Origin: Lachnospiraceae bacterium YSB2008
GTDB taxonomy: Bacteria; Bacillota; Clostridia; Lachnospirales; Lachnospiraceae
DNA length: 64,000 nt
NCBI GenBank assembly: GCA_000687655.1
Contig: JHWR01000004.1
Location: forward strand, 156,258 to 220,257
Direction: 5' to 3'
The notes below the pieces were generated by a model. The model was given only the letters and a program-made list of their open reading frames with translations. It ran no database searches and was not told where the DNA came from. Below are positions 457-57,224 of the stretch, piece after piece. The translations under genes were made by a program, and so were the position numbers. Position 1 is the stretch's first letter. Each line of letters starts with the position of its first letter.

Positions 457-2176
457 AAGAACTTTTTGTAAAAATAAGTTTGGTTCAATGCTTATATCAG
501 GTACATTTACTATGGCTGTTTTGTATCTTATGATGCTTAGCGATAGTATTATAGCTGGTCACTTTATAGGGGAAAAAGGTATAGCTGCAATTAATTCAAT
601 TACCCCTGTAACAGGTGTGTCGACTTTCTTTGGATGCATGGTTTCTACTGGAGCTGGTATTGTATACAGTCAGGATATCGGTGCTATGAGAAAAAAACAT
701 GCTGATCAGATATATGGCCAGGGTTTAATTGTTACTTTTGTTATAGGTATTATCTCGGCCGTTATTCTATATTTTATACGTGATTTATATTTTAGCATGA
801 GTGGTGTTACAGGAGAAATATATGATAGAGCTTTAGAGTACTATAAACTTACACCTGTTAATATATTTTTGACGGTTCTTGTTTATTATCTTGAGGGCAT
901 GGTCTTCAGCGATGGCGATGAACTGATAAACAATCTGGGGTATATATTCCAGATTGGCGGAAATATCTTATGTTCCATAATTCTGGCAAAACAATATGGC
1001 ATGATTGGTATAATTATAGGATCTATAATTGGAAATGGGCTTGGCATTATAGTGTCCTGCATCCACTTTTTTAGAAAAAGTAATACTCTTCATTTTGTTT
1101 GGTACTTTAATATAAAAGAACTGATAAAGACGACGCGCTTCAGTATAGTAGATGCTGTGATATATCTATGCTGGTCGGTTATGGATTATGTTTTGATAAG
1201 CTATGTGTCGGTGCACTATGGAGATACCGGGCTGATTACACTTGCGGTGGTGGTAAGCCTTATAGAGTTTGGCGTTGTTTTGGATGGCGTTGGAATGGCT
1301 GTTCAGCCACTTCTGGGAACATATTCGGGCGAAAAAAATCATGTCCTTATAAAAAGGTTGATGCGTATGGCAGTACAAGCAGCTGTTCTAGAGGGGATAG
1401 TAGTAAATGTACTGGTTATAATTTTTGCCAAGCAGTTCTGCGCCCTTTTCGGAATAACAGCTGGGGCAGCACTGGCTCCATCCATAGCTGCGGTTAGAAT
1501 TGTTTCTTTTGGACTTGTATTTTGCAGTGCTGTTTCTCTTTTTACCTCTTATTATATGTTGATAGATCATATAGGTCTTTCAGTAGCTGTTACTGTTCTT
1601 AAAGATGGCATTTTATACTCATTTTTGCCGCTTCTTGGTTCGGTTATAGCGGGTGAAAAAGGAATGTGGATTGCATTTGTTGTTGCTCCGATAGTAACAC
1701 TTGTTATATCGCTGGCGTATGTTTATCTTCGATATGGGAAAGAATTATATCCTTATTTGTTAAAGGATATGGATTCGGAAATATTTGTTTTTGATGATGT
1801 TTTGACAAAGGAGTCGGCAACTGGTCTTTCAGAAAAGGTTGAAACCCTACTGGAAGAGCATAACTATCCTAAGGGTGTGGTGAATAAAGCTGCTTTATTT
1901 GTCGAGGAGATCGGACTTACAATTCTTGAACAGAATAAGAAAGAGAAGAATGGACTTTTGATAGAGCTTTCTGTGTTTTTTGAAGAAAACAGTGCTCTTA
2001 TCATAGAGCGTGATTCTGGAAAAATATTTGATATCACTGATCCTGATCAGAAGATAGAAGGACTTAGTGGATTTATACTTAGCGGTCTCATGGAAATGCA
2101 TAAGGAAAAGGCTTATCTTATAACTACAGGTTATAATCGCAATATGATGAGATTTAGCATTGCTGAAAAACATTGA
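449..2176 (+). CDS. MATE-family efflux transporter with C-terminal histidine-kinase-like ATPase domain
   Basis: The 575-residue protein has about twelve hydrophobic segments across residues 10-440, with a MATE/polysaccharide-flippase type N-terminus (DSIIAGHFIGEKGIAAIN). Such proteins export small molecules using cation gradients. Residues about 460-575 are soluble. They look like the GHKL ATPase fold found in anti-sigma kinases (a segment beginning EKVETLLEEHNYP, then KAALFVEEIGL), although the full set of ATP-binding boxes is not obvious. MATE proteins are usually about 450 residues, so the tail is a genuine addition. The start overlaps the condensation-domain gene, implying joint expression. 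The transporter call is firm; the role of the tail is unknown. Confidence 0.8.
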   Translation: MNKRTFCKNKFGSMLISGTFTMAVLYLMMLSDSIIAGHFIGEKGIAAINSITPVTGVSTFFGCMVSTGAGIVYSQDIGAMRKKHADQIYGQGLIVTFVIGIISAVILYFIRDLYFSMSGVTGEIYDRALEYYKLTPVNIFLTVLVYYLEGMVFSDGDELINNLGYIFQIGGNILCSIILAKQYGMIGIIIGSIIGNGLGIIVSCIHFFRKSNTLHFVWYFNIKELIKTTRFSIVDAVIYLCWSVMDYVLISYVSVHYGDTGLITLAVVVSLIEFGVVLDGVGMAVQPLLGTYSGEKNHVLIKRLMRMAVQAAVLEGIVVNVLVIIFAKQFCALFGITAGAALAPSIAAVRIVSFGLVFCSAVSLFTSYYMLIDHIGLSVAVTVLKDGILYSFLPLLGSVIAGEKGMWIAFVVAPIVTLVISLAYVYLRYGKELYPYLLKDMDSEIFVFDDVLTKESATGLSEKVETLLEEHNYPKGVVNKAALFVEEIGLTILEQNKKEKNGLLIELSVFFEENSALIIERDSGKIFDITDPDQKIEGLSGFILSGLMEMHKEKAYLITTGYNRNMMRFSIAEKH

Positions 2177-2232
2177 CATTGGTGGGGGATTACTATATTA
2201 TAAAATATGAGAAGAGTATCTACTTAATGGGT

Positions 2233-2261
2233 GTGACGTCTTGATTTGCGTACACTATAAT
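2233..2261 (+). promoter_or_regulatory. Possible promoter of the RiPP export operon
   Basis: GTGACG at 2233-2238 and a perfect TATAAT at 2256-2261 are separated by 17 bases. They lie between the MATE gene and the hairpin at 2302. The -35 box is weak, so this is tentative. Confidence 0.35.
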
Positions 2262-2301
2262 CAGACAGACAGCGTAACTACATTACATATCAGCAATCAT
2301 A

Positions 2302-2350
2302 AAGCATATCCACGTGGAGACTGATCCGGTGGATGCGCTTTTTTGTTTTT
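2302..2350 (+). terminator. Intrinsic terminator or attenuator ahead of the RiPP locus
   Basis: AAGCATATCCAC (2302-2313) pairs with GTGGATGCGCTT (2329-2340) with one mismatch and one G-U pair. It is followed by a T-rich run. It may end MATE transcription. If the promoter at 2233 is real, it would instead attenuate the downstream export genes. Confidence 0.65.
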
Positions 2351-2375
2351 CATCATACGAAAGGATCCTTAATAT

Positions 2376-2600
2376 ATGGCAGAAAAATCGATATTTCGTA
2401 AAAAAAGCCTTGAAAGAGTTACATCCCCCGAGCAGCTTGACGACTATATCAAAGTGACCACACCTTCTGTGTGGATGATACTGTTTGCAACGCTGGTTCT
2501 TATCGCTGGGACTTTTTTCTGGGCCGTGTTCGGAAAGATACAGGTCAATACTGAAAACGGAGTAAAGGAAGTGGCACCGATAAGTTATGTCATCAAATAA
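2376..2600 (+). CDS. Internally deleted NHLM-type HlyD secretion protein
   Basis: The 74-residue protein starts like the membrane-fusion (HlyD-type) subunit of NHLM bacteriocin exporters: a KSLERVTSPEQLDDYI segment, then one membrane helix at about residues 30-52. Family members are normally several hundred residues and carry long coiled-coil and barrel domains. Here the helix is followed by only about 20 residues (NGVKEVAPISYVIK), which I read as the family's C-terminal tail. That suggests an in-frame internal deletion rather than a simple truncation. Its last 14 bases overlap the start of the peptidase-ABC gene, so coupling is kept. Whether the remnant works as a membrane anchor or is decaying is unknown. 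Confidence 0.6.
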   Translation: MAEKSIFRKKSLERVTSPEQLDDYIKVTTPSVWMILFATLVLIAGTFFWAVFGKIQVNTENGVKEVAPISYVIK

Positions 2601-4785
2601 GAAGAACAGGATTAAACAGCCGGTGACAAATGGCGTAGCAAAGGTTCCCGTCGTTATGCAGATGGAGGCGCTTGAGTGCGGTGCGGCGAGCCTTACCATG
2701 GTCATGGCTTATTATGGAAAATGGGTCCCCCTTGAGCAGGTCCGGGAGGACTGTGGTGTTTCACGCGACGGATCCAAGGCCGGAAACATCGCAAGGGCTG
2801 CAAGGACATATGGTTTTAATGCCACAGGATATAGGTTCGAACCGGATCAGCTTAAAAAACAGGCCAAATTTCCGTGCATCATACACTGGGAATTCAATCA
2901 TTTTGTCGTTTTATGCGGCTTCAAAAAAGGGAAGGTGTACATCAACGACCCCGCAAGGGGTGATGTCATCATAACCGAGAAGGAGTTTGACGAAGCCTTT
3001 ACCGGTGTTACAGTAGTCATCACTCCGGGCGAAGGATATGAGCCCTCCGGAAAACCCAAGAGCATGATCGCATTTGCTAAAAAGCGCATGATCGGAGCCG
3101 GATCGGCAACTGCATTTGTTGCGATAACAACGTCAGTCACATCAATATGTGCCATTGCTTTGGCAGGTTTTTCCAGGTTCTTCATGGATGAACTGCTTCC
3201 CGGAAGAAATCCTTCACTTGTCGGCGGCTTTATGGCCGCGCTTATAATACTTACCATTGTACAGATCGTTGCGGCATGGATCACTGCGCTTTATTCATTC
3301 CGGATAAGCGGTAAGTTTGCTGCTGTCGGAAATGCTGCATATTTCTGGCATGTCCTGCAACTTCCCATGAGTTTTTTTTCACAACGTATGGTAGGTGATA
3401 TAGAACAAAGACGTCAGGCCAACGCAAACATAGCAAGTATTCTTGTCAATACATTTGCTCCCCTTGTTATAAATACAGCGATGTTGATCTTTTACCTCGG
3501 TGTGATGCTGTCGTATTCGGTTGCGATGACGGCGATAGGCATCGTTGCCATAGCGGTGAATGTTTTTGTGGCATATTTTGTCAGCGCAAAAAGGAACAAT
3601 ATCACCCGTGTCATGATGCGCGACGAAAGTAAGCTGTATTCACAGACGGTATCAGGCATAGAGATGATAGAGACTATCAAATCAAGCGGTGCCGAGAACG
3701 GATTCTTTACCAAATGGTCCGGATATGAGGCGAGCGTTAACAGCCAGCGCGTTAAGTTTGCCGGGATAGATGCAAGACTCGGAAATGTACCTGTGATCGT
3801 CATGGAACTTGTTAACGATATCGTGCTCCTTATGGGAGTTTACCTTATGATAAAGGGCGAGTTCACATCTGGTATGGTACTCGCATTTCAGGGATTTCTT
3901 GTGCAGTTCCTGCTGCCGGCGCAATCACTCATAGAAGCGGGTCAGGGTCTTCAGGAAATGCGTACGCAGATGGAACGTATCGATGATGTCATGGAATATC
4001 CGAAAGATGCGGTACTTGAGCATGCCGATTCTTCGGACGGTGAGGAAAAAACTTTTTCGAACAAATTGTCAGGTAAGCTCGAGCTTAAGAATGTGACATT
4101 CGGTTATTCGAAGCTTTCACCGCCGCTTATCGAGAACTTTAACCTTACACTCGAGATAGGAAAGAGTGTTGCTTTCGTAGGCGGGAGCGGATGCGGGAAG
4201 AGTACACTTTCGCGCCTTATATCAGGTCTGTACCGTCCGTGGGAGGGAGAGATCCTGTTTGACGGCAAACCGGTGGGCGAGATAGACAGGGACCTGTTTA
4301 CAAGCTCTGTGGCGGTTGTAAATCAGGACATCATACTGTTCGAGGATACTATAGCGAACAATATCAAAATGTGGGACAACTCCATCGAGGATTTCGCGAT
4401 GATACTTGCGGCAAGGGACGCACATGTTCATGAGGATATCATGAAGAGGGACGGAGGCTACTCGTATAAGATTCGTGATGGTGGACTTGATTTTTCGGGA
4501 GGACAACGTCAGAGGATCGAGATAGCACGTGTCCTTGCGCAGGATCCGACGATCATGATAATGGATGAGGCCACAAGCGCACTTGATGCTCAGACGGAGT
4601 ATGATGTCGTCTCATCAATAAAAGAAAGAGGTATCACAACGATAGTCGTGGCACACAGGCTCTCAACGATAAGAGACTGTGACGAGATAATAGTGCTTGA
4701 TAAAGGTAAGATCAGTGAGCGCGGGACACATGACGAACTCATAGCTATGGATGGCCTTTACGCGAAGCTTTTGACAAGCGAATAG
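2587..4785 (+). CDS. NHLM bacteriocin-type ABC transporter with C39 leader peptidase
   Basis: The 732-residue protein joins three modules. Residues 20-150 are a C39 peptidase with Cys31 (LECGAAS), His105 (NHFVVL) and Asp121 (NDPARG), which cuts precursors after a double-glycine. Residues about 165-450 form the membrane domain. The C-terminal nucleotide-binding domain has an intact Walker A (GGSGCGKS), signature (FSGGQRQR), Walker B (IMIMDEATSALD) and switch His (VAHRLST). The match is to the peptidase/ATP-binding subunit of NHLM systems, which remove Nif11 or NHLP leaders during export. The Nif11 precursors downstream carry the required GG. All key residues are present, so it should be active. 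Confidence 0.92.
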   Translation: MSSNKKNRIKQPVTNGVAKVPVVMQMEALECGAASLTMVMAYYGKWVPLEQVREDCGVSRDGSKAGNIARAARTYGFNATGYRFEPDQLKKQAKFPCIIHWEFNHFVVLCGFKKGKVYINDPARGDVIITEKEFDEAFTGVTVVITPGEGYEPSGKPKSMIAFAKKRMIGAGSATAFVAITTSVTSICAIALAGFSRFFMDELLPGRNPSLVGGFMAALIILTIVQIVAAWITALYSFRISGKFAAVGNAAYFWHVLQLPMSFFSQRMVGDIEQRRQANANIASILVNTFAPLVINTAMLIFYLGVMLSYSVAMTAIGIVAIAVNVFVAYFVSAKRNNITRVMMRDESKLYSQTVSGIEMIETIKSSGAENGFFTKWSGYEASVNSQRVKFAGIDARLGNVPVIVMELVNDIVLLMGVYLMIKGEFTSGMVLAFQGFLVQFLLPAQSLIEAGQGLQEMRTQMERIDDVMEYPKDAVLEHADSSDGEEKTFSNKLSGKLELKNVTFGYSKLSPPLIENFNLTLEIGKSVAFVGGSGCGKSTLSRLISGLYRPWEGEILFDGKPVGEIDRDLFTSSVAVVNQDIILFEDTIANNIKMWDNSIEDFAMILAARDAHVHEDIMKRDGGYSYKIRDGGLDFSGGQRQRIEIARVLAQDPTIMIMDEATSALDAQTEYDVVSSIKERGITTIVVAHRLSTIRDCDEIIVLDKGKISERGTHDELIAMDGLYAKLLTSE

Positions 4786-4803
4786 AGACATTTGGGAGAT
4801 AAG

Positions 4804-6999
4804 ATGGCAAGCTGGTTCGAGGAGCAGATAGAGCTTCGTAAACAAAACGATATAGAAGCATTTGAGGATTCGTGCCTTAAGATCGCGGGTTCAGTCATGG
4901 GGCTGAAATTGTCTGCCGCACTGCAGAATGAACGAGAACAGGCAACGGATGCAATAGGATCGATCCTTAAATACTATCACATAAAGGTCAGGGAAGTTCC
5001 CGAAAGACTGCAGTCGATCGAGGAAGTTCTTGAGTATCTTCTTCGTCCTTATGGCGTCATGACAAGGCAGGTAGTACTTCGCGAGGGTTGGAGAAAAGAC
5101 GCTTCGGGTGCTATGCTGACAACCTTTGCTGATGACGGCAAGCCTGTAGCACTTATCCCTGCAGGGGCAAACGGCTATAAATATGCTGATCCGGAAACGG
5201 GTATGATGACAAAGGTCACAGCAGCTTCGGAAAAGCTCTTCAGCGGCGAGGCATTTGCTTTTTATAAAGCATTCCCTACAAGAGCGATGACTATGAAGGA
5301 TCTGTACGGATACATCTTCTCTAACCTTGACAGGGGCGGTGTATGTGGCTACTTCGGTTTTGCGCTTATCGCGACCTGTGTCGGAATGCTGATCCCGTGG
5401 ATAAACAGGCTGCTGTTCACGGATATCGTGGCGATGAGGAGTGTATCCGCATTTATTGCGATAGCGGTATTTCTCATATGTGCATCGCTTTCAAGCCTTC
5501 TGTTCGGAACGATACAGGGCCTGTTCCTTCACAGGCTGACGCAGAAGTTAAACCTAAGCATCGAGTCAGCAACGATGATGAGAATCCTGACGCTTCCGAG
5601 TTCATTCTTTACGAAATACACTTCGGGTGATCTTGCACAACGCGTCAGCAACATGAGTATCCTCATATACGAGATACTTAACATGGTCATGACATGTTTT
5701 ACGACTGCGCTGTTCTCGTTCCTCTATATCTTCCAGATAAGATCGTTCGCACCTGCACTTGCGGTCCCTGCTTTTCTTGTGGCAACGCTTCAGATGATAA
5801 CGCTGGTCGCTGCCCTTGTCATAAGATCAAGGTTAAACATGACGCAGATGGAGCTTGGCGCAAAAGAGAGTGGGCTGTCCTATTCGCTTATCGCCGGTAT
5901 CGAGAAAATCAAGCTCTCCGGTGCTGAGCGTCGCGCATTTTCCAAGTGGGCTAATGCATATGCCACGCAGTCAAAGTATATGTATGATCCGCCGATGTTC
6001 GTGAAGGTATTCCCGGCGATCATAACGGCGATATCCCTTACAGGGACGATCATCATATATTATCAAGCGATAAAAACTCATGTGGATGTTGCCCAGTACT
6101 ATGCGTTCAACGCTGCTTTTGCAATCGTATGCGGGGCAATTAAGACGCTCGTTCCGATGATAGAGCCCGCGGCAAGGATAGTACCGACATTTGAACTGCT
6201 TCGACCGGTGATCGAGACGGCACCCGAGATAGCCGAGGACAAACCGGTGATAGAAAAGCTCTCCGGCGGTATTGAACTTAATAATGTTACATTCCGCTAC
6301 AGTGAGGACATGCCTCCGGTGCTCGATGATCTTAGCCTTAGGATAAAGCCGGGACAGTATGTGGCGATAACGGGTAAGAGCGGATGCGGCAAGAGTACGC
6401 TTATGCGCGTTATGCTCGGGTTTGAGAAGCCGCAGAAGGGTGCGGTCTATTATGACGGGCGGGACCTTAACAGGATCGATCTGAAGTCCTTAAGGTCCAA
6501 GATCGGAACCGTCATGCAGAACATGTCGCTTTTTATGGGAGATATATATTCGAACATTGTCATCTCCGCCCCGCAGCTGACACTTGATGATGCCTGGGAA
6601 GCGGCTGAAATGGCAGGTGTAGCCGAAGATATCAGGCAGATGCCGATGAATATGTTCACTATCATAGGAGAAGGCAGTGGCGGCATATCGGGTGGACAGA
6701 AACAGCGCCTTATGATAGCACGTGCCATCGCCCCGAAGCCGAAGATATTAATGTTTGATGAGGCAACAAGTGCACTTGACAATATAACGCAGAAGCAGGT
6801 ATCTGATTCACTTGATGGCCTCAAGTGTACAAGGATCGTGATAGCACACAGACTGTCCACAATAAAGAACTGTGACAGGATCATCGTTCTTGATAAAGGA
6901 AAGATCGTGGAAGACGGAACCTATGACGAGTTGATCGCAGAGAACGGTTTCTTTGCCGAACTCGTGTCGCGCCAGCAGGTTGAGCGTAAGAATGGATAA
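4804..6999 (+). CDS. NHLM bacteriocin-type ABC transporter, second ATP-binding subunit
   Basis: I place the start at ATG 4804, five bases after GGGAG; an upstream TTG at 4792 sits ahead of that site. The protein of about 731 residues has an unusual N-terminal region of some 160 residues in place of a C39 peptidase. It is followed by an ABC membrane domain and a complete nucleotide-binding domain (GKSGCGKST, ISGGQKQR, ILMFDEATSALD, IAHRLST). This is the partner subunit of NHLM exporters, expected to pair with the peptidase-bearing transporter encoded 18 bases upstream. The last codons overlap the sigma-factor fragment. Base composition matches the neighbouring island genes rather than the flanks. 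Confidence 0.9.
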   Translation: MASWFEEQIELRKQNDIEAFEDSCLKIAGSVMGLKLSAALQNEREQATDAIGSILKYYHIKVREVPERLQSIEEVLEYLLRPYGVMTRQVVLREGWRKDASGAMLTTFADDGKPVALIPAGANGYKYADPETGMMTKVTAASEKLFSGEAFAFYKAFPTRAMTMKDLYGYIFSNLDRGGVCGYFGFALIATCVGMLIPWINRLLFTDIVAMRSVSAFIAIAVFLICASLSSLLFGTIQGLFLHRLTQKLNLSIESATMMRILTLPSSFFTKYTSGDLAQRVSNMSILIYEILNMVMTCFTTALFSFLYIFQIRSFAPALAVPAFLVATLQMITLVAALVIRSRLNMTQMELGAKESGLSYSLIAGIEKIKLSGAERRAFSKWANAYATQSKYMYDPPMFVKVFPAIITAISLTGTIIIYYQAIKTHVDVAQYYAFNAAFAIVCGAIKTLVPMIEPAARIVPTFELLRPVIETAPEIAEDKPVIEKLSGGIELNNVTFRYSEDMPPVLDDLSLRIKPGQYVAITGKSGCGKSTLMRVMLGFEKPQKGAVYYDGRDLNRIDLKSLRSKIGTVMQNMSLFMGDIYSNIVISAPQLTLDDAWEAAEMAGVAEDIRQMPMNMFTIIGEGSGGISGGQKQRLMIARAIAPKPKILMFDEATSALDNITQKQVSDSLDGLKCTRIVIAHRLSTIKNCDRIIVLDKGKIVEDGTYDELIAENGFFAELVSRQQVERKNG

Positions 7000-7306
7000 G
7001 CCGGAGAAAAGACCATTTGAGGAAGTATATGACGAGTACTATGAGAAGGTGTTCAAGAGCGTATATGTGAGGCTCCTCCACATGGAGAATACCGAGGATA
7101 TAGTACAGGATACATTTGTTAAGGCTATGAAAGCATACGACCGGTATGATCCGAAGGAAAAAGACATCATGGAATCCCTATTATTCGTTTTCCGACTCCA
7201 AGTTTACGCTGCCTTTTTCATAAATCCCGTTGAATTTTCCGGATTGATGCGTATAATATTATGTAGGCATCAATTGCTTGAAACAAAAACTCTCAGCAGT
7301 TTGTAA
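6992..7306 (+). pseudogene. Truncated ECF-type sigma factor (region 2 only)
   Basis: ATG 6992 overlaps the stop of the ABC gene. The first 60 or so residues (FEEVYDEYYEKVFKSVYVRL, then ENTEDIVQDTFVKAMK) are a typical sigma-70 region 2, which binds core polymerase and the -10 element. After about position 7170 the frame continues with unrelated sequence up to 7306. That sequence includes the promoter of the precursor gene. Region 4, which reads the -35 box, is missing. It looks like the front half of a sigma factor that once controlled the peptide locus, cut by the rearrangement that produced the duplicated precursors. A functional product is unlikely. Confidence 0.7.
7230..7257 (+). promoter_or_regulatory. 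Promoter of the Nif11 precursor genes
   Basis: TTGAAT at 7230-7235 and TATAAT at 7252-7257 are spaced by 16 bases, about 70 bases before precursor 1. It lies upstream of the duplicated unit, so only copy 1 has its own promoter; copy 2 and the maturase would depend on read-through. Confidence 0.6.
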
Positions 7307-7719
7307 ATGGTAAAAAAGGAGGAAAACACATGAACGAGAATCTGAAGAAATTCCTTGAGGAAGCAAGCAAAAATGAGGAACTGAAAACAAAGCTTGAGGC
7401 CCTGACCGACAAAGATACTGCTACGGAGAAGGCAATTGAGATCGCAAAAGAGTATGGCTTTACCCTTACTACTGAGGATTTTAAGGAGACACATGGAGCG
7501 GTGTTATCTGATGATGAACTTGATCAGGTTGCAGGTGGAGCAGGATGTTTGTTTATAAATTCTGATACTCCTGGGAGATGTATTATCTCTGGAAGTTACT
7601 AGATGATCCTCCTCACTTCCCCTGCGGTCATGGTGGAATGGGTGATAAGTCCTTTTATAGACGGCTGCAATCTGTATTGTTAAAGGAAAAAATATGTACT
7701 ACCGATTAAAGGATGACTA
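7305..7719 (+). repeat. Tandem duplication, copy 1 (precursor plus maturase start)
   Basis: This 415-base unit matches 7837-8252 with three substitutions and one single-base indel. It holds the ribosome-binding site, the whole precursor gene, the intergenic region and the first eight codons of the radical SAM gene. The near identity indicates a very recent duplication. Confidence 0.95.
7330..7602 (+). CDS. Nif11-like leader RiPP precursor, Leu variant
   Basis: A 90-residue precursor preceded by AAAGGAGG. Residues 1-70 are a Nif11-type leader (KKFLEEASKNEELKTKLEAL, then DELDQVAGG) ending in the double-glycine where the C39 peptidase should cut. The predicted core is the last 20 residues, beginning AGCLFINSDTPGRC and ending IISGSY. 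It has two cysteines ten residues apart (positions 2 and 12 of CLFINSDTPGRC counted from the first), plus Ser, Asp and Pro-Gly. Such a core suits thioether or other radical SAM chemistry. The adjacent maturase and NHLM exporters complete the pathway. Precursor 2 differs only in one core residue (Leu here, Trp there). Product structure and activity are unknown. Confidence 0.88.
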   Translation: MNENLKKFLEEASKNEELKTKLEALTDKDTATEKAIEIAKEYGFTLTTEDFKETHGAVLSDDELDQVAGGAGCLFINSDTPGRCIISGSY

Positions 7720-7720
7720 G
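7694..7720 (+). pseudogene. Eight-codon stub of the radical SAM maturase gene
   Basis: The start of the maturase (MYYRLKDD) is repeated here with its ribosome-binding site and then runs straight into TAG. It marks the downstream end of duplication copy 1. It is a by-product of the rearrangement, although ribosomes may still initiate on it. Confidence 0.85.
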
Positions 7721-7726
7721 TATCAG

Positions 7727-7836
7727 GTGAACGGGAAACCCAAGTTCTTATACAGCTGGCGACTTGAACCGACCGATCCGCAGCCGAAAGGAAAGAAGCC
7801 CTGCCTGTCACTTCGGGAACTGGAGAAACTCCCATC
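7727..7836 (+). pseudogene. Fragment of a Tn916-type tyrosine integrase (N-terminal arm-binding domain)
   Basis: The 117 bases between the duplicated units encode NGKPKFLYSWRLEPTDPQPK and then a GKKPCLSLRELEKL segment. This resembles the N-terminal DNA-binding domain of Tn916-family integrases, which has a GEPQFVYSWKL-like strand and a later SLRE helix. No catalytic domain is present. The open frame runs on, in phase, into precursor 2, so an extended fusion is formally possible, but the strong ribosome-binding site before ATG 7862 argues against its use. It suggests that conjugative-element DNA was involved in assembling or duplicating the locus. Confidence 0.65.
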
Positions 7837-8252
7837 AAATGGTAAAAAAGGAGGAAAACACATGAACGAGAATCTGAAGAAATTCCTTGAGGAAGCAAGC
7901 AAAAATGAGGAACTGAAAACAAAGCTTGAGGCCCTGACCGACAAAGATACTGCCACGGAGAAGGCAATTGAGATCGCAAAAGAGTATGGCTTTACCCTTA
8001 CTACTGAGGATTTTAAGGAGACACATGGAGCGGTGTTATCTGATGATGAACTTGATCAGGTTGCAGGTGGAGCAGGATGTTGGTTTATAAATTCTGATAC
8101 TCCTGGGAGATGTATTATCTCTGGAAGTTACTAGATAGATCCTCCTCACTTCCCCTGCGGTCAGGGTGGAATGGGTGATAAGTCCTTTTATAGACGGCTG
8201 CAATCTGTATTGTTAAAGGAAAAAATATGTACTACCGATTAAAGGATGACTA
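7837..8252 (+). repeat. Tandem duplication, copy 2
   Basis: The second copy of the unit at 7305-7719. It is 416 bases long because of one extra A after the precursor stop region. This copy runs into the intact maturase gene. Confidence 0.95.
7862..8134 (+). CDS. Nif11-like leader RiPP precursor, Trp variant
   Basis: A 90-residue precursor with the same ribosome-binding site and leader as precursor 1. The leader is identical at protein level and ends in the same VAGG cleavage site. The core differs at one position: Trp replaces Leu directly after the first Cys (CWFINSDTPGRC), and the remainder is unchanged. The maturase start lies 92 bases downstream, so this copy is the one directly linked to the enzyme. 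A change to a bulky aromatic residue beside a putative cross-linked Cys could alter the product, or it may be drift. Processing is expected by the radical SAM enzyme, then by C39 cleavage and NHLM export. Confidence 0.88.
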   Translation: MNENLKKFLEEASKNEELKTKLEALTDKDTATEKAIEIAKEYGFTLTTEDFKETHGAVLSDDELDQVAGGAGCWFINSDTPGRCIISGSY

Positions 8253-9672
8253 CTGTCTGAGAGGCTGGGAGCTGCTGCCGTATGCGGTTGTTGACAGCAA
8301 GACGCATCGGGTTCACTGGCTTGATAAGACGAAGTTTGATGCGCTCACTCTCTGTGACGGCTCTGTGGATCTTGATCTTCCGCTGATCTCGCAAGAAGTG
8401 CATGACAGCATCAAAGACCTGGAAGAAAAGGGCTACATAGAGACCTGTACCGCAGGTAAGGGTCTGTCAGAACGCCAGCGCTATCATCGATACGAAAACC
8501 GTTTTATGGAGTCTGCCCATTGGTCTGTCACCGGCAGATGCAACTGTAAATGTAAGCATTGCTATCTGTCCGCCGCAGATGGCAGATATGGAGAATTAAG
8601 CCACGACGATGTGATGAAGATCACAGAAGAGCTTGGCAATGCGGGGGTGTTATCGTGTTCGATCACTGGCGGAGAGCCCTTGGTGCGTTCCGATTTCTGG
8701 GAAATCGTAGATGCTCTGAGCGAGCGGGGCGTATACATCAGCCAGATCTATTCCAATGGTTTGCTTGTGAACGAAGGTCTTCTGGAGAGATTCAAGCAGC
8801 GAGGTCTGTATCCCGAATTTAATATGAGTTTCGACGGCGTGGGCTATCACGACTGGCTCCGGGGTATTAACGGTGCTGAAAAGGCAGTACGCCATGCATT
8901 TGAGCTATGCAGAGACAATGGTTTCCCAACCGGTGCTGAGATGTGCTTATGGAAGGAGAATGCACATACTCTGCGTGACAGTATAAACTACCTGGCTTCT
9001 GTGGGCTGCCGCAGCCTTAAGACTAATCCGGTAAGTGATACGGGAGCCTGGCACGAAGGTGGTTATGCGGGGAAGCATGGTCTGAGTGATGACGAGACAT
9101 TTGAAATCTATTTAAACTATCTTGAGGATTATTACAACGATCTGCCGAATATGCATCTGATGCTGGGTGGCTTTTTTGCTGCGGATGGACGGGAACCGGA
9201 CGTATATAGTATCCCCGTCGTTCATGTATCGAAAAATCCTGAAAATATATGTATGTGTGCACACGCACGCACATCCATGTACATTTCCGCAGAAGGCAGG
9301 GCTCTGACCTGCATGCCGATTTCCAATGATGATGAGTTTCAGGCGGATTATCCGCAGATCCAGGAGCTGGGCCTTAAGAATTGCCTGACAGAATCAAAGT
9401 ACATGGAGCTTATCAATACCCGTTCCGGCACAGTACTTGAGCATAATGAGAAGTGTAGAAACTGTGAATATCGTAAGTTTTGTCTTGGCGGCTGCCGCGC
9501 AATTGGTCTTTTGTGTCATCCCGGTGACATTCTGGCGCCCGACGAATTTACCTGCAGGCTGTTTCGCAATGGCTGGCTGCAGAAGATAGAAGCGAAGATC
9601 GCAGAGCTTCGCCCTACCGCCGAATGTTGGGAGCTCAAACACTTGTCCGAGCTGCAACCATTAGAATCATAA
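8227..9672 (+). CDS. Radical SAM/SPASM RiPP maturase
   Basis: The 481-residue protein opens with about 75 residues (YRLKDDYCLRGWELLPYAVV) resembling a PqqD-like leader-recognition region. The radical SAM motif CxxxCxxC is Cys105, Cys109 and Cys112, with the GGEP motif after it (SITGGEPLVRSDFWE). A C-terminal SPASM region has Cys410, Cys413, Cys419 and Cys423 among others and would hold auxiliary Fe-S clusters. Such enzymes install thioether, C-C or other cross-links on RiPP cores. Adjacent two-Cys Nif11 precursors make a sactipeptide- or ranthipeptide-like thioether plausible, but the chemistry cannot be read from sequence. All cluster cysteines are present, so the enzyme looks functional. 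It would be transcribed with the precursors. Confidence 0.88.
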   Translation: MYYRLKDDYCLRGWELLPYAVVDSKTHRVHWLDKTKFDALTLCDGSVDLDLPLISQEVHDSIKDLEEKGYIETCTAGKGLSERQRYHRYENRFMESAHWSVTGRCNCKCKHCYLSAADGRYGELSHDDVMKITEELGNAGVLSCSITGGEPLVRSDFWEIVDALSERGVYISQIYSNGLLVNEGLLERFKQRGLYPEFNMSFDGVGYHDWLRGINGAEKAVRHAFELCRDNGFPTGAEMCLWKENAHTLRDSINYLASVGCRSLKTNPVSDTGAWHEGGYAGKHGLSDDETFEIYLNYLEDYYNDLPNMHLMLGGFFAADGREPDVYSIPVVHVSKNPENICMCAHARTSMYISAEGRALTCMPISNDDEFQADYPQIQELGLKNCLTESKYMELINTRSGTVLEHNEKCRNCEYRKFCLGGCRAIGLLCHPGDILAPDEFTCRLFRNGWLQKIEAKIAELRPTAECWELKHLSELQPLES

Positions 9673-9697
9673 ATCAGAGGAACGACAAGCAGTCTAG

Positions 9698-9844
9698 TGT
9701 GACGATAAGGTGGTCCCCATCAGATCGGACCTCAAAGGTGACGAACTCAAATACCTGTTCGACTATGGGGGAATCAAATCCTTCCAATACTCCAATGATG
9801 GGGAAGAAGATTATAATATACTTGTTATATATTTGAATAAGTAA
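9698..9844 (+). other. Orphan C-terminal coding remnant
   Basis: A frame without a convincing start encodes about 48 residues ending LFDYGGIKSFQYSNDGEED and then YNILVIYLNK before a stop. It looks like the end of a real protein (balanced composition, alternating hydrophobic strand), but I do not recognise the family. It sits at the downstream edge of the RiPP island and may be what is left of a deleted gene. A GTG at 9710 could start a peptide, but no ribosome-binding site precedes it. Confidence 0.3.
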
Positions 9845-9852
9845 TGGTGTTA

Positions 9853-9879
9853 TTAGCACTCGTCGCTGACGAGTGCTAA
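9853..9879 (+). promoter_or_regulatory. CIRCE operator (HrcA binding site) upstream of htpG
   Basis: TTAGCACTC, nine bases, GAGTGCTAA: an exact match to the CIRCE consensus. It lies just upstream of the putative htpG promoter and about 80 bases before the start codon. HrcA repression with release on heat shock is the established role of this element. Confidence 0.95.
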
Positions 9880-9886
9880 TTTTATC

Positions 9887-9914: not shown

Positions 9915-9957
9915 ATGTATTAGTTTAAAATCAGTACAAGAAAAGAGGTTGATCAAA

Positions 9958-11907
9958 GTGGCAACAACAAAGGGTAATCTTACAATCAACAGTGAAAACA
10001 TTTTCCCTATAATCAAAAAGTGGCTCTATTCAGACCATGATATCTTCATTAGAGAATTGATCTCAAATGGAGTAGATGCGATAACAAAGCTTAAAAGGCT
10101 TTCAAGTATGGGTGATGCAGAGATCCCATCTGGTGAAGAGTTTAAGGTGACAGTCATGGCGAGCCCACTCGAAAGGACTCTTACCTTTATAGATAACGGT
10201 ATCGGTATGACTATGGAAGAGGTTGATAAATACATCAACCAGATAGCTTTCTCAGGAGCTACAGACTTCCTTGAAAAATATAAGGATAAGGATGAGAATG
10301 ACCAGATCATAGGACATTTCGGACTTGGTTTTTACTCTGCATTCATGGTTTCTGACAAGGTTACCATAGAATCACTTTCATATCAGAAGGATGCAGAGCC
10401 TGTATATTGGGAATGCGACGGCGGAACAACCTTCGAGATGCGTGAAGGTAATATGCAGGAAAGAGGTACAAGGATAACTCTTTATCTCTCAGAGGATTCT
10501 CTTGAGTTTGCAAATGAATTCAGAGTAAAGGAAATCATCAACAAGTACTGCTCATTCATGCCGGTTGAGATTTATTTCATAAATGAAGATGAAGCGAAGA
10601 AGGCACAGAAGGAAGTAGTTCAGAAAAAGAAGAGTGACGAAGATGAACTCGTAGGAGATACTTCTGATAAGGCAGATGAAGTAATAGATGCTGAGGATGA
10701 CAAGGATGCTCCTAAGCCTCTTAATGATACTCATCCACTCTGGATGAAGACACCGGGCGAATGCAAGGATGAGGATTATATAGATTTCTATCAGAAGGTA
10801 TTCCTTGACTTCAAGGAGCCTCTGTTCTGGATTCATCTTAATATGGACTATCCATTTAACCTTAAGGGAATACTTTACTTCCCAAGGATCAATCCTAATA
10901 TGGAACAAGTCGAGGGCAAGGTTAAGCTCTATAACAACCAGGTGTTCGTAGCAGATAATATAAGAGAAGTAATTCCTGAATTCCTTCTTCTCCTTAAGGG
11001 TGTTATAGATTGTCCGGATCTTCCTTTAAATGTATCGCGTAGTGCGCTTCAGAATGACGGCTTCGTAAAGAAGATATCAGATCATATCACAAAGAAGGTT
11101 GCTGATAAGCTTTCGGGAATGTACAAGACAAAGAGAGAGGATTATGAGAAGTTCTGGGATGATATCTCTCCATTTATCAAGTACGGCTGCCTCAGAGACG
11201 ACAAGTTCAATGAGCGCATGAATGATTATATGATCTTCAAGAATCTTGAGGATAAGTATATAACACTTTCTGAATATCTCGAGGCTGCTAAAGAAAAGCA
11301 TGAGAATAAGGTATTCTATGTAACTGACGCAGAGCTTCAGGCACAGTATATTGATATGTTTAAGAAGGCAGAAACTGATGCGCTGATTCTTACGCACAAT
11401 ATCGATACTCCTTACATACAGAACCTTGAGATGAAGAATGAAGGCGTTAAGTTCCTCCGTATAGATTCTGATGTTATCTCAAGTCTTAAGGGCGAGGCTC
11501 TTTCCGAAGAGGATGAGAAGAAGCTTACTGAAGAACTGACAGAGACCTTCAAGAAGGCACTCGGCGTAGAGAAGATAAATGTAAAGGTTGAGAGTCTTTC
11601 AGATGAAAGCATATCTTCAATGCTCACGCAGAGTGAGGATAACAGACGTATGGCTGACATGATGAAGCTTTATGCTATGGGTGGTATGCCGGGTCTTGAT
11701 TATGGAAAGGATGCAGAAACTCTGGTTCTTAATTCCAATAATAAGCTTGTTAAGTTTGTTCTTGATAATCCTGACGGAGATAAGACAGGAACTGTATGCC
11801 AGCAGCTTTATGATCTGGCTGTACTTGCAAACCGTCCGCTTACAGCAGAAGAGCTTACAAAGTTTGTGGCAAGAAGCAACGAGATACTGGGAATATTCGT
11901 TGACTGA
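9958..11907 (+). CDS. htpG: Molecular chaperone HtpG (Hsp90)
   Basis: The GTG at 9958 is nine bases after AGAGG and gives MATTKGNLTINSENIFPIIK. A TTG at 9949 abuts the ribosome-binding site and is rejected. The product of about 649 residues has the Hsp90 ATP-binding motifs (RELISNGVDAITKL, IDNGIGM, IGHFGLGFYS), an acidic, charged linker near residues 215-250, the middle domain (PLNVSRSALQ) and the C-terminal dimer domain. It assists protein folding under stress in the cytosol. Regulation is shown by the CIRCE operator just upstream, placing it in the HrcA regulon. A terminator-like hairpin follows, so it appears monocistronic. Confidence 0.97.
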   Translation: MATTKGNLTINSENIFPIIKKWLYSDHDIFIRELISNGVDAITKLKRLSSMGDAEIPSGEEFKVTVMASPLERTLTFIDNGIGMTMEEVDKYINQIAFSGATDFLEKYKDKDENDQIIGHFGLGFYSAFMVSDKVTIESLSYQKDAEPVYWECDGGTTFEMREGNMQERGTRITLYLSEDSLEFANEFRVKEIINKYCSFMPVEIYFINEDEAKKAQKEVVQKKKSDEDELVGDTSDKADEVIDAEDDKDAPKPLNDTHPLWMKTPGECKDEDYIDFYQKVFLDFKEPLFWIHLNMDYPFNLKGILYFPRINPNMEQVEGKVKLYNNQVFVADNIREVIPEFLLLLKGVIDCPDLPLNVSRSALQNDGFVKKISDHITKKVADKLSGMYKTKREDYEKFWDDISPFIKYGCLRDDKFNERMNDYMIFKNLEDKYITLSEYLEAAKEKHENKVFYVTDAELQAQYIDMFKKAETDALILTHNIDTPYIQNLEMKNEGVKFLRIDSDVISSLKGEALSEEDEKKLTEELTETFKKALGVEKINVKVESLSDESISSMLTQSEDNRRMADMMKLYAMGGMPGLDYGKDAETLVLNSNNKLVKFVLDNPDGDKTGTVCQQLYDLAVLANRPLTAEELTKFVARSNEILGIFVD

Positions 11908-21469: not shown

Positions 21470-22846
21470 TTATACCCCACGCATCTCGATGATCGGAGCA
21501 CCTTTTCCTCTTACATAATCTCCGGTGATCGTTACTCGACCGATATTATCATCCTTAGGTATCTGATACATAATATCGAGCATGAATTCTTCTATTATAG
21601 ACCTGAGTGCTCTGGCGCCGGTCTTTCTTTCCATAGCCTTCTCAGCTATGGCCTCATATGCAGAATCATCGAACTGAAGATCCACTTCATCAAGAAGCAG
21701 GAGTTTCTTGTACTGCTTTAGTATGGCGTTTTTCGGTTCGCTCAGAATCTTTACGTACATATCCTTATCAAGTGAATCAAGAGCAAAGACTACAGGGAGT
21801 CTTCCGAGAAATTCAGGGATCATTCCGAATTCACGGAGATCCTCAATCATGACCTTGGACATAACATTTCCTGACTTTTCAATTTCTGTTCTGAGTTCTG
21901 CTCCGAAACCGATGGAAGACTGTTTTGTAAGTCTTGTAAGGATTATCTCTTCAAGATCAGGGAATGCACCGCCGCAGATGAAGAGTATGTTCTTCGTATT
22001 CATGACAGTGGTAGGAGTCATGGCATTCTTGCTTCCGGTTCCTATAGGAACTTCGACATCACTTCCTTCAAGAAGCTTGAGGAGCCCCTGCTGAACAGCT
22101 TCACCGCTGACATCTCTTGAACGGGTTTCCTGTTTCTTGGCAATCTTATCAATTTCATCGATGAAGACTATTCCACGTTCAGCCTTTTCAACATCATTAC
22201 CTGCAACAGAAAGGAGCTTGGAAAGCACACTTTCAACGTCGTCGCCAATATAACCGGCCTCAGTAAGACTGGTTGCATCGGTTATAGCAAGCGGAACGTC
22301 CAGTATCTGAGCTATAGTCTTAACTATGTAGGTTTTACCGGAACCCGTAGGCCCTATCATGAGCATGTTTGATTTTTCTATCTCAACACCGTCGTCAGTA
22401 TTTTCCGGAGAGAGGACTCTCTTATAATGATTATATACTGCGACTGACATGACCTTCTTGGCGTATTCCTGTCCGACAACATGTTCATCCAGCATGGCCT
22501 TTATCTTGTGAGGGGCAGGTATGTCCTTCAGTGTTAAGACCTTCTCTCCGGAAGCTTCATCGCCCTCAGGGTTCTCAGCCTTCTTTCTTTTCTTAACCTT
22601 CTGGCTCTCCGGAATATCCTCCGGAGGGGTGAAGATGTTGAAGTTGTTGAAGCCTTTCATGTTTGAGAAGCTTGCGAAAGGTGATCCGTCACTGTTTATT
22701 GTGTTGAATGTCTTCTGGATACAGTCAGGACATATATACATATTATTCATGAACTGTATAAGCTTGCCGGCAGTTGACTCCGGTCTGCGGCACATATAAC
22801 AGTACTTTTCATATTCGTCATTATTATTGTTATTATTCTCTGACAT
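21470..22846 (-). CDS. ClpX-like AAA+ ATPase, divergent second copy
   Basis: The 458-residue product has an N-terminal zinc finger (CYMCRRPESTAG, CPDC), Walker A (GPTGSGKT), Walker B (IVFIDEIDKI) and the IGF loop for docking ClpP (SSIGFGAEL). It therefore should unfold proteins for a ClpP barrel. It differs from the standard ClpX encoded at 56004 at substrate-contacting loops: GYVG is GYIG, and the RKH pore loop (GRKHPQQE in the other copy) is replaced by a SKNAMTPTT segment. An insert of about 30 charged residues follows the zinc domain. It is not linked to clpP. I infer a different substrate range, and have left the symbol empty to avoid confusion with the true clpX. Confidence 0.9.
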   Translation of the reverse strand: MSENNNNNNDEYEKYCYMCRRPESTAGKLIQFMNNMYICPDCIQKTFNTINSDGSPFASFSNMKGFNNFNIFTPPEDIPESQKVKKRKKAENPEGDEASGEKVLTLKDIPAPHKIKAMLDEHVVGQEYAKKVMSVAVYNHYKRVLSPENTDDGVEIEKSNMLMIGPTGSGKTYIVKTIAQILDVPLAITDATSLTEAGYIGDDVESVLSKLLSVAGNDVEKAERGIVFIDEIDKIAKKQETRSRDVSGEAVQQGLLKLLEGSDVEVPIGTGSKNAMTPTTVMNTKNILFICGGAFPDLEEIILTRLTKQSSIGFGAELRTEIEKSGNVMSKVMIEDLREFGMIPEFLGRLPVVFALDSLDKDMYVKILSEPKNAILKQYKKLLLLDEVDLQFDDSAYEAIAEKAMERKTGARALRSIIEEFMLDIMYQIPKDDNIGRVTITGDYVRGKGAPIIEMRGV

Positions 22847-56003: not shown

Positions 56004-57224
56004 ATGTCAAATAAACCCAAGTTGAAATGTTCATTCTGTGGGAAGAATCAGGATCAGGTCCATAAGCTTATAGCCGGACCTGATGTGTATATATGCAATA
56101 ATTGTGTTGAGCTCTGCCTCGATATGATTCAGGAAGAGGAAACTAAGGAAATTGCAGATGAAAGAGTTAATCTTCTTAAGCCGAAGGATATCAAGGCTTT
56201 CCTTGATACTTATGTAGTCGGACAGGAAGAAGCAAAGAGAACTCTTTCCGTAGCTGTTTATAATCATTATAAGCGAGTTCTTTCCGGTAAGACCTTTGAT
56301 GTTGAACTTCAGAAGAGTAATGTCATCATGGCCGGTCCTACAGGTTCAGGTAAGACATATCTTGCACAGACACTTGCAAGAATATTGAACGTTCCATTTG
56401 CTATTGCAGATGCTACTACACTTACAGAAGCCGGTTACGTCGGAGAGGATGTAGAAAATATACTTCTTAAGCTTATACAGGCAGCTGATTATGATGTCGA
56501 CAGAGCAGAGATAGGTATCGTTTATATCGATGAGATAGATAAGATAACCAAGAAATCTGAGAATGTTTCCATTACCAGAGATGTTTCCGGTGAAGGTGTT
56601 CAGCAGGCGCTGCTTAAAATCATAGAAGGAACCATAGCTTCTGTTCCGCCTCAGGGTGGACGTAAGCATCCTCAGCAGGAGTATATAAGGATAGATACAT
56701 CAAATATACTTTTCATCTGCGGTGGTGCATTTGATGGACTTGATAAGGTTATTGAGTCACGTATAGGTAAGAAGTCTATAGGTTTCAATGCAACAATAGA
56801 CAATAAGAATATTGAGAATGAGAATGAAGTTCTCCATCAGGTTGAACCTCATGATTTCATCAAGTATGGTATCATTCCTGAGCTTGTGGGCAGACTTCCT
56901 GTTATGATCACACTCGATCTTCTTGATGAAGATACTCTTGTAAGAATTCTTACAGAGCCAAAGTCTTCTATAGTAAAGCAGTATGAAAAGCTTTTTGAGC
57001 TTGATAATGTTGAACTTCATTTTAATGAAGATGCTCTCAGAGAGGTTGCAAGACTTGCTATGGAGAGAAAGACAGGAGCCAGAGGACTCAGAGCTATACT
57101 TGAGAAGGCTCTTATGGAGGAAATGTATGAGATTCCTTCAGAAGATAATATTAAGAGCTGCACTATAACAAAAGAAGTTATAGACAGAACCGGTAAGCCG
57201 GAATACGAATATATAGAAAAATAA
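56004..57224 (+). CDS. clpX: ATP-dependent Clp protease ATPase ClpX
   Basis: The 406-residue product has an N-terminal four-Cys zinc domain (CSFCGKNQ and CNNC), Walker A (GPTGSGKT), pore loop GYVG, Walker B ([10 protein letters not shown]), the RKH loop ([13 protein letters not shown]) and the ClpP-docking IGF ([10 protein letters not shown]). All standard features are present, so it is the housekeeping ClpX, in contrast to the divergent copy at 21470. The gene is followed directly by engB. Confidence 0.98.

Follow-up and report, generated by a model that had tools for sequence, protein, structure and literature searches.

The 64-kb window analysed here lies on contig 4 of the 2.69-Mb genome of Lachnospiraceae bacterium YSB2008. 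It carries two peptide precursors, a radical S-adenosylmethionine (SAM)/SPASM maturase and an exporter, which were examined as a candidate locus for a ribosomally synthesized and post-translationally modified peptide (RiPP). The nearest named relatives at the locus were Butyrivibrio sp. MC2013 and Lachnospiraceae bacterium AB2028. Precursor 1 (7330..7602, + strand, core at 7540-7599) and precursor 2 (7862..8134, + strand, core at 8072-8131) were each 90 aa long and had the same Nif11 leader, with VAGG immediately ahead of a 20-residue core containing two Cys (AGCLFINSDTPGRCIISGSY and AGCWFINSDTPGRCIISGSY, respectively). One base differed between the two core DNAs and changed Leu to Trp. The masses computed for the unmodified cores were 2072.966 and 2145.961 Da. 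Both precursors scored 51.6 bits against the Nif11 leader profile TIGR03798 (cut-off 32.3), which together with the VAGG end placed them in that family; precursor 1 also scored 38.2 against Pfam Nif11 (cut-off 23.8). Reading frames and profile scores thus bore out the two precursors of a preliminary description of this DNA. Searched with the precursor, the genome returned these two copies and no others.

The maturase (8227..9672, + strand, 481 aa) contained CX3CX2C and seven further Cys in the SPASM region, and none of the ten varied in an alignment of 66 sequences, comprising the window's own and 65 homologs. In Pfam, Radical_SAM matched at 77.3 bits (cut-off 29.5) and SPASM stayed below its cut-off (15.7 vs 21.5). 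A genome search with the enzyme gave one full-length match and, besides, two weak partial matches at 29% and 31% identity. The maturase can rightly be called both intact and lone, as had been proposed. It stayed below the cut-offs of all 25 best-scoring curated maturase profiles, including StsB (80.1 vs 625) and AlbA (65.5 vs 850) of NCBIfam and TIGR04103, nif11-class peptide radical SAM maturase 3 (59.8 vs 725). In a fold search with the maturase model, the sactipeptide maturase SkfB (18% identity) was the best solved match. The N-terminal region may be a leader-binding RiPP recognition element (RRE); whole-chain model alignments began at residue 1 (SuiB) and residue 8 (SkfB), but folding the region alone gave a poor model, with a predicted local distance difference test score of 50. 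A defence assignment as viperin (PADLOC, 44.7 bits) was rejected, because only the opening part of the radical SAM domain (residues 98-191) was matched.

Two ATP-binding cassette (ABC) transporters of the NHLM type were located ahead of the precursors. ABC1 (2587..4785, + strand) carried a C39 peptidase domain (Peptidase_C39, 121 bits) and passed the cut-off of TIGR03796 (881 vs 853.3). ABC2 (4792..6999, + strand, TTG start, ATG at 4804) remained 4 bits under that of TIGR03797 (705.3 on 4801-6999 vs 709.4). A short HlyD-like protein of 74 aa (2376..2600, + strand) scored 33.7 against TIGR03794 (cut-off 156.2). A C39-bearing NHLM exporter is therefore present as described, with the pair placed upstream of the interval 7305..9672 to which the locus had been assigned.

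For core analysis, the best 120 of 191 precursor matches were combined with 24 additional precursors (from the best 120 of 1110 alignment-search matches) and with copies read from loci. Precursors with fewer than two Cys (25/153) were left out before counting, and locus L098, a duplicate of L010, was not counted. Expected values were obtained by shuffling the non-Cys residues, with 2000 shuffles for the closest cores. In the 19 cores with close leaders, Gly stood at +4 for 35 of 44 Cys vs 12.1 expected (standard deviation (sd) 2.7, maximum 22). The enrichment was also found among the 126 of 151 cores that had two or more Cys, at 204 of 428 Cys vs 83.0, and in 14 mutually dissimilar cores, at 22 of 40 vs 7.0, a count reached by 0/1000 shuffles. 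In 44 dissimilar cores (drawn from 128 two-Cys cores, with L011 and L100 added) it amounted to 69 of 136 Cys vs 25.2. The second Cys of the window's core conforms (CIISG, with Ser at +3). Precursors at maturase loci were counted if they lay on the same strand within 5 kb of the maturase and matched the leader pattern, which found no precursor in 5/23 and 4/9 of the loci examined in two sets. Beside maturases at least 48% identical to the window's, C-X3-G occurred in 15/16 precursors with at least two Cys, four of them near-identical Pseudobutyrivibrio copies. Four precursors beside close and two beside distant maturases were left out for having fewer than two Cys. A strict tie of the motif to the close maturase clade was discarded, as L011 (42%) and L100 (34%) both had the signature.

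The precursor-maturase pair is real and intact and belongs to an uncharacterised Nif11/radical SAM group; it most likely forms in-line Cys-X3-Gly(Asn) thioether rings. Since Gly has no side-chain carbon, a Gly acceptor at +4 would allow a link to the alpha carbon only. Our preferred reading is that the locus, which sits on a block shared by distant rumen strains, encodes an enzyme that links each core Cys to the alpha carbon at position +4, giving one or two small in-line rings; we assign it a probability of roughly 0.4. The leader would dock on the RRE-like N-terminal region, as the fold suggests. A 5'-deoxyadenosyl radical would abstract hydrogen from the acceptor Gly (core Cys14-Ile-Ile-Ser-Gly18) and, less surely, Asn may serve as acceptor as well (core Cys3-Leu/Trp-Phe-Ile-Asn7). 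The SPASM clusters would receive the electron. Hydrogen abstraction and electron transfer to SPASM clusters belong to sactisynthase chemistry. By analogy with its family, the C39 domain of ABC1 would cleave after VAGG, and the ABC pair would export the 20-residue peptide, which would probably serve in competition among rumen bacteria. The thioether role proposed in the preliminary description thus gained support from the fold and from Cys-X3-Gly in relatives, the thioether chemistry itself being a prediction.

Several observations weigh against this reading. The first Cys of the window's core has Asn at +4 (CLFIN), an exception to the Gly signature shared by the first Cys of L100 (CLISN), and in the 44 dissimilar cores Asn was not enriched there (4 vs 7.3). 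C-X2-(not Cys)-G was missing from 13/128 two-Cys cores. Beside maturases at most 44% identical, C-X3-G outside zinc-knuckle CxxCG was found in 2/15 two-Cys precursors, those of L011 and L100; the zinc-knuckle matches not counted as support were two in L072 and one each in L099 and L087. Gly was also enriched at +6 (51 vs 23.4, 43 cores), a peak that we read as the doubled form Cys-X-Cys-X3-Gly present in many relatives. The cores are related and so do not count as independent cases, and Gly could have been conserved for recognition or for a turn. As to the enzyme, the generic radical SAM profile NirJ (97.8 bits) and ScmE (83.7) scored above StsB, and SkfB led the sulfatase-maturating anSMEcpe by less than 1 Z. 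Separately, three precursors of LC2019 (5774-6133, 9007-9381 and 9460-9852 of locus L006) had a like leader and a C-X3-G head followed by a zinc-ribbon-like CxxC...CxxCGT tail.

Further points against the +4 link concern the acceptor. The bond may instead run from Cys to Ser/Gly at +3, to one of the hydrophobic residues at +1 and +2 or, as in ranthipeptides, to a side-chain carbon, with the +4 Gly serving only recognition or a turn. In the 19 closest cores, Ser was enriched at +3 (11 vs 3.5, z 4.5), so that an acceptor there, as in streptosactin, could be Ser17 of the window core; Gly at +3 was at chance (12 vs 12.1), and the two together were slightly raised (23 vs 15.5, z 2.5). In the same cores V, I, L, F or M occupied +1 and +2 in 30 and 35 of 44 cases vs 12.2 and 11.4, and they were enriched in the wider core set also. 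Asn accepts at its beta carbon in NxxcA, according to the available text of PMC8326336. In the 44 dissimilar cores, however, Ser/Gly at +3 was depleted (18 vs 33.0; Ser alone at chance, 9 vs 8.6), so streptosactin spacing is not general. Asp at +4 was absent (0 vs 8.4) and Glu at chance (4 vs 4.2), so neither is the CX3D/E pattern of PapB, and no Cys-X3-Asp/Glu motif was found in the window's cores. Moreover, the most constant position is a Gly, which offers no side-chain carbon. We regard linkage elsewhere as somewhat unlikely.

A product with no thioether, in which the enzyme makes a C-C or C-O link, an epimer or an excision and the Cys pair forms a disulfide, appears quite improbable. The tyramine-excising PlpX is among the radical SAM enzymes of clusters with NHLP/Nif11-type leaders (available text of PMC11002830), and the precursors showed weak similarity to the triceptide profile XyeA (18.7 and 20.3 bits, below the cut-off of 33). 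Against it stand the missing Xaa-Tyr-Gly of the PlpX type (the single Tyr of the core is C-terminal, with no Gly after it), a conserved signature anchored by Cys, and odd Cys numbers in some cores (three in L068, five in L070). NCBIfam matches of the precursors up to E 0.05 comprised the Nif11 leader, XyeA and CTB only and no SCIFF profile; the two Cys of the core also fall short of the six Cys in 45 residues required for SCIFF.

StsB, which we take to be the family of GggB, was the best-scoring sactipeptide-maturase profile for the enzyme, far under its cut-off. The SkfB system presumably has neither a Nif11 leader nor an NHLM exporter. The thioether rings of streptosactin are small and un-nested, and in one of them Gly is the alpha-carbon acceptor, at Cys-X2 spacing (PMC8172795, available text). 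Its Cys-X2-Ser/Gly spacing contrasts with the present group overall, in which Ser/Gly is depleted at +3 and Gly enriched at +4, although +3 Ser is enriched in the closest cores; the Nif11 leader and NHLM exporter also set the window's locus apart from it. Freyrasin, made by PapB, has the in-line Cys-X3 spacing with an Asp/Glu acceptor at the side-chain carbon (PMC9413430, available text). The spacing is shared, whereas none of the 44 dissimilar cores has Asp at +4, and PapB was absent from the 25 best profiles of the window's maturase; its relative at L071 matched PapB at 61.1 bits (cut-off 340). The present signature would thus combine the spacing of freyrasin with the acceptor of streptosactin.

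A single promiscuous enzyme serves the Nif11-family precursors of the prochlorosins (PMC10783134), and hypervariable cores occur behind NHLP-type leaders (PMC2887384), as far as the available texts of both describe. Prochlorosins are lanthipeptides made by ProcM, whereas the window has a radical SAM/SPASM enzyme. Clusters of anaerobes in which NHLP/Nif11 precursors accompany radical SAM proteins and a transporter with an N-terminal peptidase have been described before (PMC4289311). These clusters share the architecture of the locus; the available part of that account has neither the core signature nor the product, and neither the window's strain nor its relatives. The earlier remark that the core matches no recognised RiPP holds for the curated libraries searched, but uncharacterised relatives are many (191 precursor and 2022 maturase matches). 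The maturase had matches in 51/61 genomes of the genus (E 0.001, the majority being weak radical SAM hits), 13/397 of the family (E 1e-50) and 12/392 of the order (E 1e-60), the precursor in 3/61 of the genus (E 1e-8). Titles and abstract openings of open-licence PMC articles contained no account of the leader, of the maturase or of a radical SAM motif of the form C-X3-G, and the Hungate1000 survey of bacteriocins (PMC13289728) mentioned no Nif11, MC2013 or AB2028 in its main text.

Exporter, precursors and maturase together occupied a block (2161..9709, no strand assigned) delimited by blastn to MC2013 and AB2028. Identity to MC2013 was 98.6% over 2161-7157, 91.8% over 7242-7678 and 97.7% over 7839-9709, and to AB2028 99.1% over 2161-7030 and 94.9% over 8204-9723. 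Precursor stretches between the main segments were 91.7-98.7% identical. Beyond the block edges blastn gave no match, the comparison at the right edge of MC2013 spanning about 245 bases. The best match to the window's ClpX was 69% identical in AB2028 and 69% in the genome inferred as MC2013. The latter genome was so identified by a 99% identical maturase lying equally far from a contig end and by a blastn result equal to that of the MC2013 locus. Its HtpG shared 63% identity with the window's within residues 5-452 and 42% in the remainder, and it represents a different genus from the window's. Because the main segments are 95-99% identical while ClpX is at 69%, the block is judged to have moved between lineages. 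Scraps of a Tn916-type integrase lay within the block in the window and in AB2028. The window's fragment (7720..7837, + strand; Integrase_DNA domain, PF02920, 47.4 bits on 7727-7861) recurred over 119 nt at 99.2% in AB2028, in which a C-terminal integrase piece followed the maturase; the MC2013 block had no copy of it. A 58-nt direct repeat of AB2028 (9389-9446 and 11504-11561 of its locus, 97% identical) flanked its second precursor-maturase unit and adjoined the integrase pieces.

The window's two precursor units (7305-7719 and 7837-8252) formed a tandem duplication, with 99.0% identity across 416 columns and the integrase fragment between the copies. Each unit included 26 nt of the maturase start, left by the duplication as a remnant at 7694..7719 (+ strand). 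Reading through the integrase fragment into precursor 2 yields an open fused frame of 135 aa (7727-8134), which is probably a chance outcome of rearrangement. Maturase-start remnants also lay between precursor copies in AB2028 (63 codons) and in LC2019 locus L006 (about 25 codons), none being found between those of MC2013, and five database precursors (P0167, P0200, P0201, P0210 and P0226) were fused behind such a remnant. In several strains, arrays therefore seem to expand through duplications that break within the start of the maturase gene.

Beneath a constant leader, the cores differed. Copy 2 of the window and copy b of MC2013 had leader DNA identical at 210/210 positions (203-209 of 210 in the remaining pairs compared), and the maturase genes of the two strains agreed at 1432/1446 (99.0%), while only 44/69 columns matched in the core and 79/89 in the 3' stretch. 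Since silent sites were unchanged as well, protein-level constraint on the leader is not a sufficient explanation, and the core was probably replaced recently or the leader homogenised. The second copy of AB2028 likewise kept the leader with a different core and 3' stretch, and its maturase start was divergent (74% over the first 90 nt, then 89-100% except for one 90-nt stretch at 78%). A diversity-generating retroelement was set aside as the source of core variation, because the cores of copy 2 in the window and copy b in MC2013 differed by gaps and by changes at G and T besides A, and because the precursor search found only two copies in the genome. Five reverse-transcriptase matches (group II introns, retrons and diversity-generating retroelements taken together) occurred in the genome, none on the window's contig.

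What makes this locus informative is the signature, the unlike cores under one leader and the horizontal spread. Should the Cys-X3-Gly rings be real, they would add to the in-line thioether patterns Cys-X3-Asp and Cys-X2-Gly, and the enzyme would be useful for peptide engineering, as in relatives it adjoins many unlike cores behind one leader. Unlike cores with an unchanged leader on a block in distant rumen strains would make the origin of new RiPP cores directly testable. The stronger proposal, of a new sactipeptide-like class in which a substrate-tolerant Nif11-dependent enzyme makes in-line Cys-X3-Gly alpha-thioethers on hypervariable cores, encoded by a 7.5-kb block that moves between genera of rumen bacteria with the core alone swapped as a combinatorial peptide system, is doubtful.

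Production in YSB2008 is uncertain, since the HlyD-like part is short, the sigma gene truncated and a DUF7005 gene absent, and this too counts against the preferred reading. Between exporter and precursors, MC2013 had a full gene for an extracytoplasmic function (ECF) sigma factor (182-aa frame), a DUF7005 protein and a 62-aa peptide. About 1.4 kb of its block was missing from the window near 7157-7242, so that collinearity did not hold throughout. The window retained an ECF sigma remnant (6992..7157, + strand, partial Sigma70_r2) cut after about 55 residues, where the blastn match to MC2013 ended at 7157, and it contained neither a DUF7005 match nor a DNA counterpart of the 62-aa peptide. AB2028 kept the DUF7005 gene and had the sigma factor reduced to its first 26 residues. 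The middle of the HlyD-like protein appears to be missing, as frames of relatives extended over 140-167 codons stop to stop. It retained the N-terminal membrane part, and by eye its C-terminal end resembled some relatives. The DUF7005 protein of MC2013 (8124-8990 of its locus) contained an HExxH-like stretch (HECTH); it is possibly a peptidase or an immunity protein.

These losses, with the integrase scraps between the copies, would also suit a decaying locus that yields no product in YSB2008. However, the reading frames of both precursors and of the maturase are uninterrupted and strongly conserved, and a site resembling a sigma-70 promoter (TTGAAT-N16-TATAAT, 7230..7257, + strand, 10/12 in a consensus scan) precedes precursor 1; the scan gave 10 sites on both strands vs 5.0 (sd 2.5) in shuffles. 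The HlyD-like protein was 74 aa long and 98.6-100% identical in the window, MC2013 and AB2028, and the sigma gene was cut in AB2028 also. The losses are thus not specific to a dying copy, and decay is considered unlikely.

Folding of 8129-8228, between precursor 2 and the maturase, was not above shuffles (z -0.38) and gave no sign of an RNA element. At Rfam gathering scores, solely one tRNA and the start of a small-subunit rRNA were found across the window. The final codons of a MATE-family transporter of 575 aa (449-2176) overlapped the shared block at its left end. A gene named htpG-like by eye (9949-11907) lay 3' of the maturase and was preceded by a 13-pair inverted repeat at 9852-9880, ATTAGCACTC-N9-GAGTGCTAAT, which we take to be a CIRCE operator pattern. 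Two ClpX-like genes, also recognised by eye, were located at 21470-22846 (- strand) and 56004-57224 (+ strand).

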